Source: Apus apus (lineage: Eukaryota; Chordata; Aves; Apodiformes; Apodidae). Taken from it: a stretch of DNA of 64,000 nucleotides. Position 1 is the stretch's first letter. Each line of letters begins with the position of its first letter. The DNA lies in NCBI RefSeq assembly GCF_020740795.1, contig NC_067282.1, positions 176,642,274 to 176,706,273 of the forward strand, read 5' to 3'. The position numbers and the translations under genes were made by a program. Under the pieces are notes generated by a model, which did not search any database, had not been told where the DNA came from, and saw only the letters and a list, made by a program, of their open reading frames with translations. Below, piece after piece: positions 1,706 through 62,694 of the stretch.

Positions 1706-2588
1706 ATAGAATCATAGAATCATAGAATCATAGAATAATAGGGGTTGGAAGGGACCTTGAAAGATCATCTAGTCCAACCCCCCCGCCAGAGCAGGGTCAC
1801 CTAGAGTACATCACACAGGAAGGCGTCCAGGCAGGTTTTGAATGTCTCCAGAGAAGGAGACTCCACAACCTCTCTGGGCAGCCTGTTCCAGTGCTCTGTC
1901 ACCCTCACAGTAAAAATTTTTTTTTCTGATATTCACCTTAAACCTCCTATGCTCCAATTTGTATCCATTACTCCTTGTCCTATCACTGGTCATCACTGAA
2001 AAAAGCTTAACTCCATCTTCTTGACACTCACCCTTTACGTATTTGTAAACATTGATGAGGTCACCCCTCAGTCTCCTTTTCTCCAAACTAAAGAGACCCA
2101 GCTCCCTCAGCCTTTCCTCATAAGGGAGATGTTCCACTCCCTTAATCATCTTTGTAGCTCTGCGCTGGACTCTTTCAAGCAGTTCCCTGTCCTTCTTGAA
2201 CTGAGGGGCCCAGAACTGGACACAATACTCCAGATGCGGCCTCACCAATGCAGAATAGAGGGGGAGGAGAACCTCTCTTGACCTACTAACCACACCCTTT
2301 CTAATACACCCCAGGATGCCATTGGCCTTCTTAGCCACAAGGGCACATTGCTGGCTCATGGTCATCTTCCTGTCCACCAGGACCCCCAGATCCCTTTCAC
2401 CCACACTGCTCTCCAGCAGGTCAGCCCCCAACCTGTACTGGTGCATGACATTTTTCTTCCCCAAATGCAAAACTCTACACTTGCCCTTGTTGAACTTCAT
2501 CAGGTTTTTCCCCGCCCAAGTCTCCAGCCTGTCTAAGTCTCTCTGAATGGCAGCACAACCTTCTGGTGTGTCAGCCACTCCTCCCAGT
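1706..2588 (-). mobile_element. CR1 LINE, 5'-truncated, 3' end of ORF2 and 3' tail
   Basis: The plus strand starts with repeated ATAGAATC units (the reverse of the CR1 3' tail), then GGGGTTGGAAGGGACC. On the minus strand a long open frame (1811 to the truncation point near 2588) encodes the C-terminal part of the CR1 reverse transcriptase protein, including [25 protein letters not shown] and [19 protein letters not shown] frame change at the T-run near 1914-1926 displaces the usual ending. It is the best preserved CR1 copy here. The RT catalytic core is missing, so it cannot move by itself. Confidence 0.95.
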
Positions 2589-4582
2589 GAACAAAAAAAG
2601 CAAGTGATGTGCACTTTGGAAGTTGACATAATTACATAGTGCATATACATGACTGTGCATACCTACTAGGGTGACACTGGCTATTTCGGGAGCCCAGAAG
2701 GCAGAAGTGCTCTGCCCAGCACTCCCCCTACCTCCACTTCTACCTATTCCATGGGAGGAGACTAGATTTGGTTATGTGTTTATATAGACATATAAGCATC
2801 TATATCCTTTTACTCCTTTTCCCCACAATGTCACCTTAGTCTAATACTTTTAGTAGAAACTCTAATGATTCTGCAGGAGAAGGTGGTTACTTAATGGTAG
2901 AGGTTTTGTTCTGCTGAGAATGAGACAGTTAAACTCATCTTGCAGTTTAAGCAAAGACTGTCTCTAAACCACAAAGTGTTGGATTTTTTAAATTACCGGA
3001 GGACGCTATATAAATATTTTTTCAGTCACTGAAATGGAGGAACCAGACTGACTGAATACCTGACGTATTAATTCAATAGGTTTAGGTTTTCTTATAATAA
3101 AGATTATTTTCTATAAATCAAAAAAAGATGAGAGGAATATAAATGTAAAATTAGGCCAATCCTTTTGAATTTTAAGATGTGTCGAGGCTACAAGAATTAA
3201 TTCATTCATGAAAGACAAGGAGTTAACTTGAGACTTTGATCGAAAGGAATACAGTGTTTTATGTGCATTATCTGTAAAATATCTGGAGGCACAAAAAGGC
3301 CAGCTTTAGAATGCTGTCAAATACTGTTGTATAAATCAATTGCCAAGGTAAGTCCATCATTTTGTAAAAAAATAAAAATAATCCATGTCAGAAATATTTG
3401 TGTTTATATGTTAAAATTTAATCTTATGATTTGATACAAATGGCATATTTTGTAATACTCTGGGGTTTTTTTTATTCTACTCTCCAAAGCTGAGATACTT
3501 GGTTTGCCTTCAGGTTAAGAAATCAATTACAAGTTTATACATGCATTTGTGTCCTGGAGGGAATGGAGACTTGATTGACATAAAAATCTCAGAACTGAAC
3601 TGCATTAAAATTGTCTGTCAACCTCCTGCATCTTTAAGAAGAAGAATTTGTGCAAGCATATATTTTTTCCTAGACATTTCAGCATTTCTGTTAACACTGA
3701 AATATGCTGTGGGTATGCTATGTAGCTAGAAAATGTCACAATATCCATAGCCTTTGAAATTAATATTTTAGCATTGTATAGTTACACATTGTTGTTAAAT
3801 ATTGATTCACCTTGTAGTAATGAGAATGGGAAAATAGGAAGGGAAACACTTCTTGAAATTCTACTCTGAAATTGTTTTAAGCTCTGCTTCTTTAAATTCT
3901 ACTCTTCACAGAATGCCCCATAGCTCTAAAAATTAATGTTAGTTTTATTAATTCAAGTTATTGCAAAATGACTTGCCCCTCTGGTGTAAAAGGTAATGCA
4001 AATGGTTTAGATGAGTGTTCATCAGCTGCAGAACCTTTTCCACTTCATTGTGCTCCCCAAGGTGTGCTGCATGCTCAGAATGCGAATGGTCACTCAGAGA
4101 TGAAAAGGCTTTATGTATCATATGTGATGGAGAAGATAAATCACAAAACTATTCTGGTTTAAAAAAAAAAATTCTTACCTGAACCAAGGTTTGAAACCAA
4201 GTACATAGACACATTCAGACACACAAACAAATTCTACATTTACCATAGAGGCAGCTCAGAGGAGAAGGTACTTAAAAAGCTTCTTCATATCCAAGGCTAT
4301 TTAGGCCTAGACCACTTATTACAAGACTCAAAATCCAGTAATGTGCAAACATGATTATTGCCCAATCCTACAGCATCTCTATCAACAACAAGTTTATTGC
4401 ATCTGGTTTACAGTGAGGTTTGGCAAAAGGCTGCATCACATGAAAACCTGTGGTTTCCTTTGTGGTCTGTGGAGAAAATGAATCTGTTTCTCTCTGGGTA
4501 GGCATTAAAACAATATTGCCAAACACCTTAATGTGTCACATAGAGAACTATGTTTATGAGCCATTTCTGTGCTATGCAATGA
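2589..4582. other. Intergenic, nothing recognised
   Basis: AT-rich stretch between two CR1 copies. Reading frames are short and unlike any known protein. Confidence 0.7.
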
Positions 4583-5557
4583 TTACCCAGGGGTCAGTTC
4601 TGGGACCAGTGCTGTTTAACATCTTCGTTGAACACATGGACAGTGGGATTGAGTGTATCCTCAGCAAGTTTGCTGGCAATACCAATCTGTGTGGTGTGGT
4701 TGACACCCTAGGGGGAAGGGACACCATGCAGAGGGACCTTCACCAGCTCAAGAGCTGGGCCAATGCCAACCTCATGAAGTTCAACAATGAAGGCCAAGTA
4801 CAAGGTCCTGCACCTGGGTCGGCATAACCCCAGGCACAAATACAGGCTGGGAGGAGAATGGCTGGAGAGCAGTCCTGAGGAGAAGGACTTGGGGGTGGTA
4901 GTAGATGAGAAGCTCAAGATGAGCTGTCAGTGTGCACTTGCAGCCCAGAGAGCCAACTGCATCCTGGGCTGCATCAAAAGAAGAGTGGCCAGCAGGGCCA
5001 GAGAGGGGATTCTGCCCCTCTACTCTGCTCTGGTGAGGCTGCACCTCGAATACTGTGTACAGCTCTGGAGCCCTCAGCATAAGAAAGATACAGACCTGTT
5101 GGACAGGGTCCAGAGAAGGGCCATGAAGACGATTAGATGGCTGGAGCATCTCTCCTATGAAGACAGGCTGAGAGACTTGGGGCTATTCAGTCTGAGAAGA
5201 GCAGGCTCTGAGGAGATCTTATAGTGGCCTTCCAGTACCTGAAGGGGCCACAGGAAAGCTGGGGAGGGGCTTTTCACATGAGAGGGTAGTGATAGGACAA
5301 GGGGTAACAGTTTTAAACTGAAAGAGGGGAGATTTAGGTTAGACATCAGGAAGAAATTCTTCACCATGAGGGTAGTAAGGCACTGGAATGGGTTGCCCAG
5401 GGAGGTTGTGGGCCCCTTCCCTGGAGGTGTTCAAGGCCAGGCTGGATGAGGGTTTGTGCAGCCTGGTCTAGTGTGAGGTGTCCCTGCTCGTAGCAGGAAG
5501 GTTGAAACCTGATGATCTTTAAAGTCCCTTCCAACCTTAACCACTCTATGATTCTAC
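4583..5557 (+). mobile_element. CR1 LINE, 5'-truncated, with frameshifts
   Basis: It starts at the conserved QGSVLGPVLFNIF block of the reverse transcriptase and ends with a CTATGATTCTA tail. The catalytic FADD is degraded to FAGN. The frame shifts near 4790 and again near 5210, splitting the protein into pieces ([46 protein letters not shown]-like block). An inactive fossil. Confidence 0.95.
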
Positions 5558-51826: not shown

Positions 51827-52788
51827 TTACTGTATCATAATCACTTCAAGTGTTGTAAAGCAGTTTTCTACAATCTTTAGCTCTTCTTCAGAAAGCAGGT
51901 TTTCTTGCTTCATTTGCCCAATAAGAGCTTCTAAAGATCTGAGTCTCCCCAAAGTTTTTATCTCCTGCATTTCAAGTAGAGTGATCTTAGAGTGGAGCTT
52001 TGAAATGTTTTGCCAAAGGTGATCTCTGTCTATGTCTTGTTTGCAGTATGAGTGCTCAGTTTGTAAAATTTTGCCTCCACCATACGTGTTCATATTAACA
52101 GATGTATCTGTTTCTGTCACCTCTGTGTCAAGAAACTCTTGTTGAACAGGCAAGAAAGAACTGTTAACTATTTCAGGCTCTTCTAGACCCTCAGATGGCA
52201 CAATGATAGCAATGATGGATTCCTCACTTCCACTGAACTGTTCATAGCTTCTGTGACTGTACTCAGTAGAACTGTATTTTCACTTGTTGGCTGTACTTCA
52301 ACAGAATAGCCTAAAACATGGGAGTTAGGATTTTCAGCTGCACAGTCAGTAATTGAACCTAAAGCATTGTTCAGCTTCAGAGATGAATTCGAGTAGTTAG
52401 CATCTGTAAACTGCAAGACTGTACAACCTGCTGGATCTTCTACAGAAGCATGAACACGGGTAGCTTCTATGCTCTGCACTGCTGCTGCCATTAAAACAGG
52501 GTTAGGCTGAAGTATATGATGCGTAAATGAATTATCAAGAATGATATTGTCTGCCTGAAACTGCTCTCTGTTTTGAAGTTGTAGTTTTTGAATTTGTGAA
52601 GGTTTACTCAATGCAGCTGAGCAAACTACTTCTGCTTTTTCATCTACATTTTCTGCAATTACAGGATTTTTCTTTGGTGTACAAAGTTCATGCAATAAAG
52701 ATGCCCTCTCTGACTCAATATTTGTATCCATTTCTTCCAGGTCTTTTCTCTTTACCTCTTGAGGGGTGTTCTGAGAAGTGTCTTTTTC
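51827..52788 (-). pseudogene. THAP5: THAP5 exon 3 remnant: linker, HCF-1-binding motif and coiled coil, frameshifted
   Basis: The acceptor CTTTTACTCCAG precedes 52788 in phase 0. About 200 codons are open to a frame change in 52226-52238 (after NSS, before SEESIIAIIVPSE), consistent with loss of one base. Untreated, the first frame ends at a TAG near 52183. The second frame is open to the natural stop at 51827. It carries EHSY at 52046-52057, which fits the [D/E]HxY HCF-1-binding motif of THAP proteins, followed by a Leu-rich coiled coil (about 51860-52030) that closely resembles the human C-terminus. The terminal residues resemble human THAP5 (FTT-EV-MI). Confidence 0.9.
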
Positions 52789-53727
52789 CTGGAGTAAAAG
52801 ACCACAAACAACACAAATCCAACCACCTTGTAACTAGGAAATCACCTGAACATAAAAAGAAAAACAAAAACTGGGCAAATCCCCTTCTGTAGCATGGTAC
52901 TGAGTAACTAGTAATTTAGATGAGCACCATCTAAAAATTACACCAGAGACCTGAAAATTCATGTCAGTATCTTCTGTAACTGTGCTTTATGTCCTAAATA
53001 TTAAAATATTATTTTAAAGCTCTAAAGGCAGTAATGCTTGTTAAATTTCTTTTTCAAACTCTAAGGAACTTTATACCTATTTACATGTGTCATTATAATT
53101 TTTAAAGCACTTGAAGAGACGTGGTTAAACAAATCTGTTTGAAAAAGACTGGCTAGTACCTCCTATCACCACCTGAAACTGCATGAAATATATGCCTATT
53201 AAATATAGACAGTACAAGATTTCTGCATTAAAGATGCAACAAATTTGTTTTAGCCAGTGATGGCCAATTTTTAGTTACATAGGCCAACCAGAAGAGATTT
53301 TAACAACAAAGAATACAAACACAGGCTTGCAGAACAGTGAAACATACACCTGCAAATACACAGGTGGATTTTTAAACAAGCAATTCAATTCTGACAGCTA
53401 AACTTCACAATTCATAAGAATGAAGAATATTTTTCTGGACTGATAGAAATCTTAAAAGGATAAAATTTTATCAGCACTTCAAACAGAAGTTGTTACTGAA
53501 AGAGGGACAATTTGAAACTTATCCTTTTTAGCCACCACCTTTTCCCCTCCTCCACATAAAATACATCACCACATGACTGGATTTAAGATAATTATCCAAA
53601 CAAGCATTTTGAAATATCAGTCAGTTAAACAAAAATACAACACTGAGTGTCTCCTTTCTTTCAAAGAGGCTTGATTATGAAGAGACCAAGATGCAGAACT
53701 TTTACTCATGTTAGGCCTGTGGACTAA

Positions 53728-53800
53728 AACCAAAACCAAACCAAAAAAAAAAAAAGCATAAAATTAAAACAAAACAAAAAACCCAGAACAAAACAAATAG
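53728..53800 (+). repeat. A-rich CAAAA simple repeat in THAP5 intron 2
   Basis: Imperfect CAAAA and CCAAA units, with a run of 13 A in the middle. Confidence 0.8.
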
Positions 53801-53841
53801 AACCAGGATCAACTTTTAACTTTGATAACTACAGGCCATGC

Positions 53842-53880
53842 AAAAAAAAAAAGGGGGGGGCGGGAGGGGGGGAAGGGAAG
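53842..53880 (+). repeat. A-run followed by G-runs, G-quadruplex-prone
   Basis: About eleven A are followed by G8, C, G3, A, G7, AA, G3 (G-runs at 53853-53877). Four G-runs of at least three with very short loops fit the G-quadruplex pattern on the plus strand. It lies in the intron between THAP5 exons 2 and 3 on the non-sense strand for THAP5. Confidence 0.8.
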
Positions 53881-55203
53881 AAAAGAGGCTAGGCAGAAAA
53901 AAGATAATTTGAAAATTTATGTTCATGAAAGTGTGTATGTAGTCTGAAGTATCCTAAATATATGATATTTGTAATTTGATCTTATATGAAACTTCAGTGC
54001 CGAAGGCCTGCAAAATGTATACAGTGATAGTATTCATTTGGTTACCTTTATTTTTCAAAGGTGATACTTACCATCACAACAATATTAGGGATTTTGAGAG
54101 AATGATGCATTTCCCTTTCTCTGTTCCACCAGCAGCTGAAAAAGCTGTTCTCAGACTAAATCTTGTTCCTCTACATTAACTTGGGAACACAATAAAAAGG
54201 GATTCTCCTCCAGAATAAGGACAAGTATTTCCCATGTCTTTGTGAATATTCAGTCTATGAAGAAATTTTGGTTTTCGGGCAACTATAGAACCAGTGGCCA
54301 AGTCAATGGATACTGTTGATTTGCTGAGGTGTTCACTGAGAGGTTATGTGTAGATTTTTAGAAAAACACAGTCAGAAGAGTGAGATTTAAGAAAATAACA
54401 CCAGAGAGAGAAGTGAGACCCAAGGAAAGAAAGTTCACAGTATCACAGGTATCAAGAACCGGCACCTCTTTTCTCTTGATAGCACAGAAGTAATGGATAT
54501 GTTGAAAGGAAGCACGAAATGGAATAAATTTATCTAGGACTTCCTATATATCTTGTTAATGCAAAAAGAGAAAAAGAGAAGCCATTGGTATATTCTTGGC
54601 AAAACCACTGTGTAAAAAGTTTATGAACTTGGTTACTCTACTGTCCACCTTTGTAGGTGTACTATGACTGGTCTATGGTCACATGCAAAACAAGAGAGAA
54701 TGAAAGTTGGGAAAAGCTGACTTTTCTTTGGGGAGAAATCACATTGTTTATCTGCAACTGGTCAGAACCATAGGGCAGCAAAGTCCAGTTCCAAAGGCAG
54801 GGCTCCCTGTTACAATGACAGCACAGGGAAGGGATGGCTATATTGAAACGGGGAGCAGGGGGTGGAAGGAAAGATATTAATTGATAAATTACTACCACCA
54901 AAAATTGCAAAATGTTGTATTTTTATGTTTTAATTTTCCTATAGGAAATTTCTTACAGGAAATGCTTCTGTAATTTCCAATTTAAAAAGATATTGAACCT
55001 CCAGTCGGAGTATGGAAAGTTGTTCTCACTTTACACTATGGAATCACATATTCATTTTGTGTCAGTCCTGTTGACAAAATATTTTGATGAACATTAATTC
55101 TATTTTTAATATACAATATGAATATATTACAGATCACTAGGACATCTGTATTACATAAACACTTGGTTAGCTTTGTGATACAATTAAAACAGAAATATGT
55201 TAC

Positions 55204-55393
55204 CTCATCATCTGGGGACGAAAAAATGGTTGGTACAGCTGTATGTTTCAAGTATCGTATACCCCATCGCACATCCAGGGAACCAGGGGTGAAATGATCA
55301 CTGCAGAGAAGCTAGTGCTTACTTGGAGTCCATGCATCTCGTTTCATATTTTGCAATCATTTCTCAAGTCTCTCTTTAACATGAAGTGGAAAT
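55204..55393 (-). pseudogene. THAP5: THAP5 exon 2 remnant: second half of THAP domain with two in-frame stops
   Basis: The 190-base exon runs from the acceptor CTTAAAAACAG|A to the donor GAG|GTAACA and restores phase exactly with exons 1 and 3. It reads FPLHVKERLEK, then TGA where the family has the near-invariant Trp (codon 40 counting the GTG as 1), then LQNMKRDAWTPSKH, then TAG (codon 55, family Gln), then LLCSDHFTPGSLDVRWGIRY and the AVPTIF motif. The last two zinc ligands, C58 and H61, remain. The in-frame ATG four codons after the TGA, equivalent to the start of a shorter human isoform, is closed by the TAG. Confidence 0.92.
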
Positions 55394-56866
55394 CTGTTTT
55401 TAAGCAGCTGAAAGAACATATAAAAAATGAACCAAACAAAAAACCCCTCTTATTCTCCCTCCCTCCCTTCCATCTCCATAAAGCAAGTCTCAGCAGCCCT
55501 TCTACAGGACCACGACACTCGTAAGGGAGCTCAATTCAGTGGCTAGATAAAACAGCTGTGTTTTTACAGCCATCTTTATACTGATGCCATACATGTAAAT
55601 ATAAATATGTATCAGCACTCAAACTTGTTTTCCTCATCCTTGTGCCACTTATACTCTCTAAAGCAATAGAAATGATTTCCTCTCATTTTCATGATTGTTT
55701 TACGATGACTCACATAATCAGAGACATGCCATGAAAAAGAGCTTTCCTTCAATATAAGCTAAAATCCCTTTCAAACCACTCTTCCTTTGGGTCTTCCTAC
55801 ACAGCCTTCCCCATCTTGGAAAAACAATGACTTGTCAGGAACTGAAACAAACTAACATCTTAGTTTAAGGTATAAATTTCATCAAAACAGATTTTTAGGC
55901 TTGTTGTGAAATTTACTCTTAATAAAAGTTTTTCTCAGGTGCTAAAAAATTCTTTCAGTCCACAAATGCTTATTCAACAGAAATATACTAATATTTAGTT
56001 CCTTGTGGTGTGCTCCTCTCAAGATTGAGAAATCCTGTTTTTAACTCATCCTTCTGGGAATCAACAACCATGTAACCACAACAGTACAGAGGTTATTGCC
56101 GGCCTGGGACTGTGACTTAATCCATCAGGTGGCTGGATAGTACTGGGCAGCCAACGTAAACTGGTTTTTGGCAACCCAGCTAGTTCACTTCCAGTTAGAC
56201 CAGCTGCTTCCAAACAAACCAGCAATGCCTCTGTCTGCAGTGTAGGCAAGAGAATAAGTCTAGTGGCAATACTCAATTTCAAAGAATTAATATATGTTTA
56301 CTGTCCTACTCTTGTCAGGCCCTTCGTTCAGCTCGCAAGCTGTCAGAGGACAGAAGTCGATGGCCCCACTCGGGGGGCTGGAACACCCCTCCCACAAAGC
56401 CAGCCACGCTTGACAGAACGGGGTAACCAGTGCTGCTTCGCCCTAACAGCTAAGCACAAATAAGCACAAATTTTATTTTTTAGCCAAATCTCGCTGAAGG
56501 TAATTTCGTGAGGTGAAAAACCTCCTCGCGCCCTCCGCCCCTTCCCGAGCCCTGCCACGCCGCGGTACCTCCTCCCGGCCTGCAGGCGCCGTCCGTCCCG
56601 GCGGGGGGCGACTCATCGCCCCGCCTGTCAGCGCTGCCTCCGCCCTCCTCCCGCCCCCGCGGGCTGACAGCGTCGTTTCCCCGGAGCCGCTGGGCACCGG
56701 GCGGGGTTCGGAGGCAGCTCCCAGCCCCCAGCTCCGTTTCTCGGCCATTTCCCCCCCGACTCCTGAGGGGCCGCCACGGGCCTCGCTTCACTCGCAGACG
56801 GCCCCTCTGGCTGGCGCTCGCCACTCCCGGGCCAGCCGCGCCCCGGCCCCCTCCCTGGCCACTCAC

Positions 56867-56949
56867 GGGTAGAAGCTCAGCTTGCGCTGCTCCCTGGCGC
56901 TCTGCCCGCCCCGGTTCCTGCAGTTGGCGGCGGCGCAGCGCCGCGGCAC
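56867..56949 (-). pseudogene. THAP5: THAP5 exon 1 remnant: first half of THAP domain, start codon GTG
   Basis: Reading begins at GTG (56947-56949), where the family has ATG, and runs 27 codons plus two bases to the donor ACCC|GTGAGT at 56866. The first two zinc-ligand cysteines, C5 and C10, are present, and the exon ends in the conserved KLSFYP. The exon and the roughly 230 bases 5' of it contain no CAT on the plus strand, so no ATG exists on this strand there. The GTG has G at -3 but C at +4. Non-AUG initiation is possible in principle but would run into the stops in exon 2. Confidence 0.88.
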
Positions 56950-57130
56950 GGCGGAGCAGCGCGGCCGGGCGGCGGGGCGGGGCGGGACGGGACCAGCCCC
57001 GGCCGCGGCGGGAGGCGTCCCGGGGCAGCGGCCACCGCCCCGCCCCGCCCGGCAGCCCCGCCCCGCCCGCCGGCCTCGCGTCACGTGGGGCCCGCTGGCC
57101 AATGGCGCAGCGCTTCGTGTAGGAACCGCG
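56950..57130. promoter_or_regulatory. Bidirectional TATA-less promoter between THAP5 and DNAJB9
   Basis: About 250 bases separate the former THAP5 start from the DNAJB9 exon 1 donor. The gap holds several GC boxes (GGGGCGGGGC-type at 56971-56987; CCGCCCCGCCC-type at 57036-57070), a CACGTG E-box and a CCAAT box. No TATA box is seen. The arrangement matches the shared promoter of these genes in other vertebrates. Its survival is explained by DNAJB9 even though THAP5 is broken. Confidence 0.75.
57081..57103. promoter_or_regulatory. E-box/ACGT core (CACGTG) and CCAAT box, possible stress-response element
   Basis: TCACGTGG contains CACGTG at 57082-57087, and CCAAT lies at 57099-57103. On the minus strand the first reads CCACGTGA, overlapping the CCACG half of the ER stress element and the ACGT core bound by XBP1/ATF6-type bZIP factors; CACGTG is also a USF/TFE site. 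The CCAAT box is in the opposite orientation and about 10-11 bases away, so this is not the canonical CCAAT-N9-CCACG element. Known induction of DNAJB9 by the unfolded protein response makes a role plausible, but it is inferred. Confidence 0.45.
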
Positions 57131-57205
57131 GCTGGGGCGCGGCTGGGCGGTCTGCGCGAGCGCGGGCGGCCGTTGGGCGGGCGCGGCGGCGGGCGCGGGG
57201 CTCAG
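57130..57205 (+). other. DNAJB9: DNAJB9 noncoding exon 1 (5' UTR), approximate start
   Basis: A consensus donor CTCAG|GTGAGG ends an exon at 57205 inside the CpG island. The next acceptor that leads into the DNAJB9 start codon is at 60864, so intron 1 is about 3.66 kb. The 5' end is not visible from sequence alone; the start given is a guess downstream of the CCAAT and E-box elements. No ATG occurs in this exon. Confidence 0.6.
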
Positions 57206-60200
57206 GTGAGGGCGCGGGGCAGGGGGGCGGCGGGAGCGCCGGGGGAAGGCGGAGGGTGCTGCTGAGCTAGAGGGGAGGGGAACGCGGAGGGGCCGGAGAG
57301 GTTAGGGGGCACTGGGGCGGCTGGGAGAGGGGGCTGGGGACGGGGCGGGAAAGGGGCGACACTGCAGCTCGGTCTGGTAGATTTATTTGCGCTTTGGGTC
57401 ACTCTGGGCTCCCGCTTCCAGCTAGGCCCATGAGCTGCGCTCTTTACCAAGCCTGGCCGACTTGGAGGTGCGACAGCGTCGCTCAATGTTGATGGTATCA
57501 TCTGCCGTAGTCTGGCTCGGCCTTGCTTGTTGTGGTGCGGCTCAGTCGAGGCTCGTTAGGGTCTGGCTGGGGAGGGTGATGCCAGGGGAGCTTCTGTCTC
57601 GTTTCCGTGCTCTCCAGAGCACGACCCGGGAGCCTTCTCCTAGGTTCGCTTTTCGGTCAGTAGAGGAGGTGCCAAGAAAAGCATAAGCCCCTCAGTTTGA
57701 CTTTCCCGTAGCTGGTTGTGGGGTACCGATTTGCTTACTCATCGGGTTAGTCGTGATATGAGAACCAATGGAAAACGCTGGTAACTTTCTTACTACTACT
57801 AAATAATTTGTAAAAATAGTTATATGGCATCAGGATTCCACTAGATAGTTCATCATAATTTTTGTCATAAGAGCAGTAGTGACGCTCTGGATTTTCTGAG
57901 TATGTGAGACTTTGTGAATATAACCTTATAACAGAGGTCTTTCCTAATTAGAACATTTGCATTGCAAGATGGAAATTTCTCCTTTTTTTCTATATATGAC
58001 ACGTATTTTTCAGGGTATATCCTCCTTAAACATCAGTTCATCCTGTTGCTATTGATAAATGTTGATAAACCGATGGAGAAGTGAGTTAGTGTTACCATGT
58101 CTATAATACTCTTGATAAACATTATACAGTATACTTATACAAAGCTTAATAGTAGTTGAGATCTGTAACTATTTGACAGAGACAAATAGTTAATCTGTGT
58201 TAATAAAATCTCTAGCTTTATTGTTAGATGTACCTAAATAAAATGTAGTTCTTCATAATTGTTAGGAGGTACTTTTTTGTGGCATGAACTTAATATCAAT
58301 AAGTATACAGAATATACTGAACTCTGAAATGTGTTTTGAGTGACTGTGGTGCATAGCCTGGAAAATGAAACTTACCTGCCCTTTTTGAATCAGAAATCAA
58401 GGGAGAAGTAACATAAGCAGAATAAGTGTTTTGAAAGGGATTGTAAAAATCATTAGGCATAGCAGGGTGGATGTCAGGCATTTAACATCTTAGTAAACAG
58501 CAATGCAAAGATGCTGACAGCATGTAAAATTTTCTAAAGAGTAAATTCTGTAATGAATTATAGTGCCTGTATATTAGACTTATTATATCTTTGTGATAAC
58601 CTTATAATTCTAAAATGCTGCTTATATTAGTGCTTCATTTGTATTTGATTTGCATGTATATTTCCTTTTGTATTTGGATTTCAGTGAGCTGTTAAAGGGC
58701 AGCATTAAATTGTCTACATTATTTTAAAAAGCAGTGAAACTTAAGTACTGATTTCTTTGTTAATATATTTTAGAAATCCAGATAAAACTAGAGGCAGCAT
58801 AGCTGGAACTGCATTACAGAAATCCTAGTGTAAAACTGTAGAAAAAAGAAAACTTAGTTGTAATTCATTAGAGTAAGAATAAAGAGGTTGAGAGGTTTGG
58901 CAGAGCAGAGAACTATGGGGGAGAGAGTTGTTCTCAGGCTCTGATGAGCTTGGGAGTTAAGAAAACCAGATTTGCCTTTTAATGGAGGACATAAACTGCT
59001 GTTTTTAGCTCTTTTCAGTGTTAAATTTTAGAAAAAGGCAGGCTAGGGGGTTATACAAGCATGCTGCAGATGTGCGAAAATAAAATAAAAACTTATCTCA
59101 GAGATGGAGACCTAAATCTGTATCCGTAAAGCACAACCAGGAGGAGAGCCCCAAGAGTGTGGAAGGATTTACAGGTGTGTAGTTCTTGGTGTCCAAGTGG
59201 CAAAGTTTTATGTTAGTGATCTGGTGAGAGAAAATGCGTTCAAAAGCCTTGGAAACACTTGTATTCAAAATGACTGGTATCATGTATGAAGAACACTGAG
59301 AAGAGCCGTCCATTTGTTGTCTTAAGTACATTGATCAAAATACAATTTGTTTCAACTGCTGCTCCTTAACACTTGATATGATGCAGGCTGGTAGCCAAAC
59401 AAATGCTTAAGAGGACATGGGTATGTTAATCTTGTGCTCTTTTTGCTCTTGCCTCACAATATTCATTTAAGTTCCCTAACTTGCCTATTAGAAATGGTAT
59501 TTTTTTCCATTGTTGATGCCTGAGTATTAATTTTCTTTAGAGATGGTATTGACTTTTTATTATTTTATGTTATCTGACTTTTTATTATGTACCTGATATT
59601 CAGAGGTTTTGAACTCTGTGACAAATGTTTGGACCACTTACTGTATAAAAGTATTCTAACTTTAATGGTACTCAGGCTGTAAGGTTAGTTTATTCAACCT
59701 AGAGGAAAGTAATTCTGTTCATCTCTTTAGAGTTGTACTTACAGTACACTGAAATCTGTAATCTGGTGAGGGGGACATGTACCTTCTGGAACATTAAGGG
59801 CCTTGCCATATAGATTCTGCTGGTTAGGTGACAGCCAGCATTTTGTCTTAAAACATTCATATTTCTATGCTCTGTTTTAAATAAAATATGCACAGACCTT
59901 GGAAAATAATTTGATCTCTTCTCCTGGTAGGAAGAGCTCACACTGTCCTTCATAAAAATAATTCAAGATCACATGGCTATGTGGAACTGACTTTTCTTAT
60001 GACTTATGCCACATTTTTCCCTGAGTTCTAGCATCAGTTTGTTTCAAAATGTAATTTTTTGACAAATATGTTGCTGAAAAGAAAGGTTTGTTTTGTTTTG
60101 TTTTTTAGTTCAGTTCAGACATAGAAAGACCTTTTAATGCAGTCGTATCTATCCAATTAATACTTTGATATCAAAGGTCTGGTAGGTGTTTTTATTTATA

Positions 60201-60875: not shown

Positions 60876-62694
60876 ATGGCTACTACGCAATCTGTCTTCA
60901 CATTTGCTCTCTGCATTTTAATGATAACTGAATTAATACTGGCTACAGAGAACTATTATGATATCTTAGGAGTTCCAAAAAATGCATCTGACCGCCAGAT
61001 CAAGAAGGCATTTCACAAGCTGGCTATGAAATACCACCCAGACAAAAACAAGAGTCCTGGTGCAGAAGCAAAATTTAGAGAAATTGCTGAAGGTAATATA
61101 TTATTAACTTGGTCTTAATAATTTGATACATGGCTTATATCTGTGAGCAAAAGTGGTAACTTAAGTATTCTCTGTTTTTACTCAATAAGAAGTAAAAGGT
61201 GTTTTTTTTCTTAATTCTACGCCTGTGCTATCAAATGTCCAGTATCAATATCTGACTTGTTTCTGTGTCCTTGCACATAGGCAGGCCTTTTACATGGTTT
61301 ATCCATTCCTGCTTATTAGGCTTTTTGGCTTATGCCTCTTGTCACAAAAAATAGTTGGCAGTAGGACAACTTTAGCCCTAGCAGGATAATTCTTTTGATC
61401 TGTCTAGTAAGATCCAACTCAGGATTACTAGGGCTTCAGGGTGACCTAACAAGAACCTTCCAGTAACTATGGGGAGATTATAAAAAGTCACAGCAAGGTG
61501 TTTCAGTGGTTCATGGTGGTAGTACAAAAGACAATGGGTGCAAGAGGTTCAGAGTAGTTAAAGGAAATTTTTTTTTACCTTGAAGGGTAAGCCAGTGTTG
61601 GAATGGTTTGCTTACAGAGGTTGTGGATAAATGAGTGAATAAAGCCCTGAGTAGCCTAGTCTGATCTCACAGCTGAACCTACTTTGAGCAGGAGGTTTGA
61701 GTTGAGACTTTCTGAGGTCACTTCCAACCTGAATTTTCCTGTGATCCACCATGCAGAAGCATTTTGTGATAAAATAGTGGAAGCAAAAATAATCAAGAAT
61801 AGAAAAAGACTTGCTGAAAAATGCGGTGTCCCCACCTCTGCTCCCCATAGACTGTTATAACATCTGTCTATTTTTGTAGTTCTCCAAACTAAGCTAGTAA
61901 GAGATTTCTGGGTTTTATCTTCTGGTCTGTTGAAGAGTTCTTTTGAAAGAAATGTAGTTATTAATATAATGAAAAGGAGGGACAATCTTGTTAGATACTC
62001 ACTGCATTTGTTAGCACTTACTGTAGGAAGAACTAGGAACTCTTAAGTGTTGAAGTTACACAGAATATTTGCAAGCCTTTGACACATAAAAAACCTGAAG
62101 GGTTCAAAAGGCTTAATGTTATCAGAATGGATATGTTATCTGTCAGAGGTCTTGCTTGAAATTTGTCCTATCAAGGGAGTGGAAGAAAGCTGTTCTTTGT
62201 GTTTGTTTATGATTTTTTTTCAATGAGATGTAAATAAACTTTTTTTTTTGTTAACGGAAATAGCATATGAAACACTATCAGATGAGAATAAACGAAGAGA
62301 ATATGATCAGTTTGGCCGTCATGGAGGACAAGGAAATAATGGAAGCCCATTCCATCAATCATTTAATTTCAACTTTGACGATCTGTTCAAAGACTTTGAC
62401 CTCTTTAGCCAAAACTCACGGTCAAAAAAGCACTTTGAAAATCACTTCCGAAGTCATCGGGAAGCTCACAATCGGCAAAGACGTTCTTTCCAAGAGTTCT
62501 CCTTTGGAGGTGGACTGTTTGATGATGTGTTTGAAAATATGGAAAAAATGTTTTCATTTAGTGACTTTGAAAATGCCCACCGACATGCAGTGCGAACGGA
62601 CACCAGGTTTCATGGATCCAGCAAGCACTGTAGGACTGTCACTCAGAGGCGAGGAAACATGGTTACCACATATACAGACTGCTCTGGACAATAG
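60876..62694 (+). CDS. DNAJB9: DNAJB9 (ERdj4), ER-lumenal J-domain co-chaperone, two coding exons
   Basis: Coding exons are 60876-61092 and 62264-62694, joined in phase 1 (GAA G|CA), giving 648 nt and 215 residues plus stop. The ATG has G at -3 and G at +4, and lies 11 bases after the acceptor TTTCTTTCTAG. Residues 1-23 are a hydrophobic signal sequence or anchor. The J domain spans about 26-90, with HPD at 54-56 inside KYHPDKN. Next come a short Gly/Asn linker, a Phe-rich segment ([13 protein letters not shown], then [10 protein letters not shown]), and a C-terminal block ending in TYTDCSGQ that is characteristic of DNAJB9. In this family the protein stimulates the ER Hsp70 BiP, helps clear misfolded ER proteins, restrains IRE1 and is induced by the unfolded protein response. 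Human DNAJB9 has 223 residues; the eight missing here fall in the region after the J domain. No lesion is seen. It is head-to-head with the THAP5 remnant. Confidence 0.97.
61470..61745 (+). mobile_element. Diverged CR1 3' fragment within DNAJB9 intron 2
   Basis: Landmarks in order are GTTCAGAGTAGTTAAAGG, a T-run, GGAATGGTTTGCTTACAGAG, CTGAGGTCACTTCCAACC and a short tail ending TCCTGTGATCC. All match the CR1 3' coding end and UTR on the plus strand. It lies between coding exons and does not touch the splice sites. Confidence 0.75.

Follow-up and report, generated by a model that had tools for sequence, protein, structure and literature searches.

A 64,000-nucleotide stretch of the Apus apus genome (assembly GCF_020740795.1, contig NC_067282.1, positions 176,642,274 to 176,706,273; hereafter the window, with positions counted from its first base) carries the three exons of THAP5 in a damaged state beside DNAJB9. 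We conclude, with a probability of roughly 93%, that this THAP5 locus is an orthologous unitary pseudogene that was inactivated by ordinary mutation and is decaying. The conclusion follows from the lesions in the exons, from the place of the locus between PNPLA8 and DNAJB9 and from a genome-wide search by exon DNA and the THAP profile in which no second copy was found. It agrees with an earlier note on this DNA, made from the sequence alone, which had proposed a unitary THAP5 pseudogene next to an intact DNAJB9. The sequence basis is a single assembly of one individual, in which exons and lesions were read directly and by translation; the window contains 0 N.

Lesions in the three THAP5 exons

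The minus strand holds three THAP5 exons in collinear order, and their alignment to bird THAP5 spans 411 positions:

56949-56867 (83 nt), minus strand: THAP5 relic coding exon 1; GTGAGT donor; GTG replaces the start codon; zinc ligands C5 and C10 readable
55393-55204 (190 nt), minus strand: THAP5 relic exon 2; GTAACA donor; TGA and TAG inside; zinc ligands C58 and H61 readable
52788-51827 (962 nt including the natural TAA), minus strand: THAP5 relic exon 3; CTCCAG acceptor; frame break and two-codon gap

Spliced together, exons 1 and 2 keep their phase and give 91 codons, and the collinear order and correct phases described before were confirmed by direct reading and translation. The start codon position (56949-56947) reads GTG. 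Within exon 2, a TGA occupies the codon of a conserved THAP-domain tryptophan (55359-55357), followed 15 codons later by a TAG (55314-55312), and exon 3 has a one-base frame break. All the damage listed in the earlier note (start lost, two in-frame stops, a frameshift) is thus visible in the sequence, with the break at about 52,240 rather than near 52,230. We add one lesion to that list: near 52,417 two codons are missing in frame, at residues that are present in 20 of 20 aligned birds. The longest ATG frame of the spliced relic has 182 codons and covers the linker only, so that there is no open ATG-to-stop THAP5 frame; in exon 3, the EHSY motif and the coiled-coil part are still legible in the second frame. 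Both introns are kept and the locus is in its ancestral position, which shows that it is not a retrocopy.

The splice sites had been called good. Donors and acceptors are indeed present, but a second AG precedes the acceptor of exon 2 by 14 nt (window 55393-55412), with a better pyrimidine run before it. This AG may compete with that acceptor, may be one more lesion or may be a normal feature of the lineage.

Departure from conserved THAP5 residues

A protein search with the THAP5 read-through gave 596 matches at E ≤ 1e-5 (best E 1.4e-212), 120 of them listed; some species appear more than once among these, and one record (P0105) is unnamed. Identity of the relic to the 120 listed proteins ranges from 71 to 81%, with none above 81%. 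The Pfam THAP domain scores 55.6 bits on the read-through, in which C5, C10, C58 and H61, which we take to be the C2CH zinc ligands, and the AVPTIF box are readable. Together, the protein matches and the Pfam score argue that the likeness to THAP5 is not due to chance.

At the codon that is now TGA, 117 of the 120 listed proteins have tryptophan and the other three a gap; glutamine stands at the codon that is now TAG in all 120. The missing tryptophan is a lesion in the relic, not a mark of divergent ancestry. At the homologous start, 95 of the 120 have methionine (94 begin MPR and one MSR), the remaining 25 being cut or starting elsewhere. Three listed records start only at a later methionine, still ahead of the TAG, and a shorter THAP5 form of this kind would therefore be stopped too. 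Four listed records (P0050, P0072, P0089 and P0099) have an unrelated N terminus (M-A-T/A-N...); the likely cause is a gene model from which the G+C-rich exon 1 was left out.

Private changes were counted against proteins that begin MPR and have at least 400 amino acids (94 of the 120 listed), which makes the start-codon part of this tally circular. At 76 near-invariant THAP-domain columns the relic has nine private changes, compared with a mean of 0.20 and a maximum of one per exon in the 94 other proteins. Three of the nine are lesions; the other six are ordinary replacements and point to decay rather than base-calling error. For exon 2 alone, aligned separately, the relic has five private changes, and the next highest among 118 rows has two.

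Protein trees placed the relic beside the hummingbird Calypte, with support of 99/94 in a tree of 55 rows (54 of the 120 listed proteins plus the relic) and an unstarred 93/90 in one of 25 rows (24 of the 120 plus the relic). Three residues are common to the relic and Calypte alone among the 120 listed proteins. Approximately unbiased tests on the 25-row tree did not reject alternatives with owlet-nightjar (p 0.23), passerines (p 0.43), nighthawks (p 0.18) or trogon (p 0.41). A separate search with the C-terminal protein found no swift-named fragment among 10 matches (best identity 83%), in a database whose swift coverage is unverified.

Relative rates and age of the loss

We counted differences specific to the relic and to Calypte, scoring an X at a lesion as a difference. 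In the THAP domain, 11 differences were relic-only and one was Calypte-only, with p 0.0063 for each of the outgroups Thalassarche, Leptosomus, Balearica and Phaethon, all four of which include exon 1; removing the three lesions leaves 8 against 1, for which a hand calculation gives p about 0.04. Judged by these protein comparisons, an excess of change is evident within the THAP domain but in no other part.

Several results weigh against the unitary-pseudogene reading. Two outgroups gave no significant THAP-domain excess: Aegotheles, which covers exon 2 onwards (5:0, p 0.062), and Phoenicopterus, in which part of exons 1-2 is absent (2:0, p 0.5). Whole-protein tests were mixed, with p from 0.0034 to 0.32 across the six outgroups. 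The relative-rate counts showed no significant excess in the linker or in residues 278-330, and the last 79 columns gave 3:3 with all six outgroups. Exon 3 is also stop-free over 319 codons, which under neutrality has a probability of 0.37, 0.28 or 0.21 at 0.03, 0.04 or 0.05 substitutions per site. Taken segment by segment at the protein level, the THAP domain appears relaxed, with the C terminus not distinguishable.

Exons 1 and 2 of the relic contain 11 amino-acid changes. Neutral simulation of these exons yielded 7.4, 9.6 and 12.0 changes at 0.03, 0.04 and 0.05 substitutions per site, and the avian neutral rate is near 2e-9 per site per year. THAP-domain decay of about 0.03-0.05 per site would thus probably date the loss to some 15-25 million years ago, a rough estimate, as exon 1 falls within CpG-rich sequence and no outgroup DNA entered the calculation. 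That exon 3 has only two indels and no stop in 319 codons counts against a great age. The earlier description of the loss as quite recent is doubtful on this estimate. At 15-25 million years, the loss may be common to several swift species.

Search for a second THAP5 copy

The genome searched comprises 1,100,375,756 bases in 110 contigs, with the window at 176.64-176.71 Mb of a 206-Mb contig. When exon DNA was compared with the whole assembly, exon 1, exon 2 and exon 3 each matched only themselves. The Pfam THAP profile detected six places, one of which is the relic locus itself. Of the other five, three align with THAP5 proteins at an identity of 36-55%, and the remaining two find no match among them at E 1e-3; on this likeness we take all five to be paralogues, none of them THAP5-like. 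The damaged exon 2 still scores 39.4 bits in this search, so that an intact exon 2 should have appeared. Exon-by-exon searches can overlook genes, as a patatin family search missed PNPLA8. Within the completeness of the assembly, neither exon DNA nor the THAP profile revealed the second intact THAP5 for which the earlier note had called for a search, in keeping with the definition of a unitary pseudogene as one with no functional copy elsewhere.

Neighbouring genes and other features

Around the relic we recorded the following features:

60876-61092, plus strand: DNAJB9 first coding exon; open
62264-62694, plus strand: DNAJB9 second coding exon to the stop; open
56550-57449, no strand: G+C-rich stretch that surrounds THAP5 exon 1 and reaches towards DNAJB9; G+C 0.73-0.83, measured in steps of 300 bases

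DNAJB9 lies head-to-head with the relic and has an open frame across 215 codons that is 96% identical to its best database match, as expected of the intact gene described before. The G+C-rich stretch is presumed, from its composition and position, to be a divergent promoter common to THAP5 and DNAJB9. An endoplasmic reticulum-stress promoter motif was sought and gave no match, and Rfam at gathering scores found nothing in the window.

PNPLA8 is on the same strand as THAP5, and its exons are some 74-109 kb past the 3′ end of THAP5. It extends over about 176,584,567-176,620,399 of the contig, with the first coding exon at 176,620,399, about 22 kb left of the window. The gene was read piecewise and not assembled whole: seven of nine exon pieces are open, one has an edge TAG that we read as a splice acceptor and one was misframed by the coordinates used. 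With PNPLA8 on one side and DNAJB9 on the other, the relic sits where THAP5 is expected, and a study of duck describes PNPLA8, THAP5 and DNAJB9 in one region (PMC8042899). No PNPLA8 exon lies inside the window, and the patatin search of the genome gave seven places, none near the window; the aligned one on the same contig resembled another phospholipase. A rearrangement that removed PNPLA8 was considered and rejected, as 200 kb of flank shows the gene in place. The NRCAM marker gave no match and is uninformative.

Elsewhere in the window, open frames at 1811-2662 (minus strand) and 4444-5224 (plus strand) resemble fragments of CR1-type retrotransposon reverse transcriptase, recognized by eye only. 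On another contig, two tandem FBPase gene sets (C36:47341550-47365597) have four matching exons each. Hummingbirds have lost one FBPase gene (FBP2). Two such sets would argue against a hummingbird; if the bird is apodiform, as is probable, it would then be a swift or treeswift, most likely a swift.

Alternative explanations

An intact THAP5 gene misread by sequencing or assembly would account for the single-base frame break, as such breaks are a common long-read error. The same error would have to explain three separate substitutions and also the six replacements private to the relic at THAP positions that hardly vary. DNAJB9 and seven of the nine PNPLA8 pieces are open and the window has no N, and we consider this explanation very unlikely. 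Equally unlikely is a relic that is merely a duplicate of a working THAP5 elsewhere in the genome. Assemblies can miss G+C-rich genes, but the relic is in the expected position between PNPLA8 and DNAJB9, each of its exons matches itself only and no other THAP place was found to be THAP5-like.

A third explanation is that the locus has been reduced to a short C-terminal protein of 88 codons without a DNA-binding domain, still made and selected as a natural dominant-negative. The frame concerned is a putative coding frame:

51827-52093, minus strand: 88-codon ATG-started frame in exon 3; EHSY motif and coiled coil; open

That this frame is open speaks for such a protein, as do C-terminal differences equal to those of the hummingbird (3:3) against 11:1 in the THAP domain; at 0.05 substitutions per site, so few changes (four at most) have a probability of only 0.065 in neutral simulation. 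At lower divergence, however, neutral decay yields four or fewer changes with a probability of 0.39 (0.03 per site) or 0.18 (0.04 per site), and private changes at 4 of 50 columns (one of them common to Calypte) do not differ from the 9 of 76 in the THAP domain (Fisher p 0.56). The 3:3 count in the last 79 columns is therefore no proof of selection on the C terminus. Translation of the frame would also have to contend with nine ATGs spread over the presumed leader and the first two exons. We regard a retained and selected C-terminal protein as most improbable. It is likewise a long shot that only the DNA-binding half was lost and that the 88-residue motif-plus-coiled-coil protein antagonizes other THAP proteins in swifts otherwise without THAP5 activity.

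Discussion

Under the unitary-pseudogene reading, ordinary mutation would have inactivated the orthologous THAP5 locus, with decay following. No full-length THAP5 protein would then be made, and any transcript started at the common promoter would either lack coding capacity or be degraded. The locus may persist partly because exon 1 lies within a G+C-rich island that also serves DNAJB9.

We regard this as a genuine loss specific to the lineage and ordinary in kind; the other birds in the comparison retain the gene. It is apparently unreported: no report of THAP5 loss in birds was found in the open-access literature searched. The bird THAP5 proteins, such as those of Calypte anna (P0028) and Thalassarche (P0006), are unlike the relic in having neither stops nor a frame break. 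The closest parallel is STK33 in neognath birds: conserved among vertebrates, this gene is described as having turned into a unitary pseudogene along part of the avian tree, a loss identified, as here, through stops, indels and synteny (Lautwein et al. 2015, PMC4509753). The STK33 loss is reported to be about 100 million years old, with exons deleted and only remnants in 28 bird species (PMC4509753), whereas all three exons of the THAP5 relic remain and it is known from one genome. CNR2 in parrots offers a similar case of order-level gene loss in birds, but it is a receptor gene for which an effect of the loss has been proposed (PMC9727682), and none can be proposed for the THAP5 relic.

In the literature THAP5 figures as a cell-cycle inhibitor with links to heart disease (PMC6402169). 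One paper contradicts the interaction with HCF-1 that the earlier note attributed to it. We claim no phenotype for its loss. An annotated gene set has been described for the chimney swift (PMC4322804). A bird line living without THAP5 would show that this line can do without the gene. Were the loss common to swifts, it would serve as a natural knockout to set against hummingbirds, among which Calypte still has THAP5.

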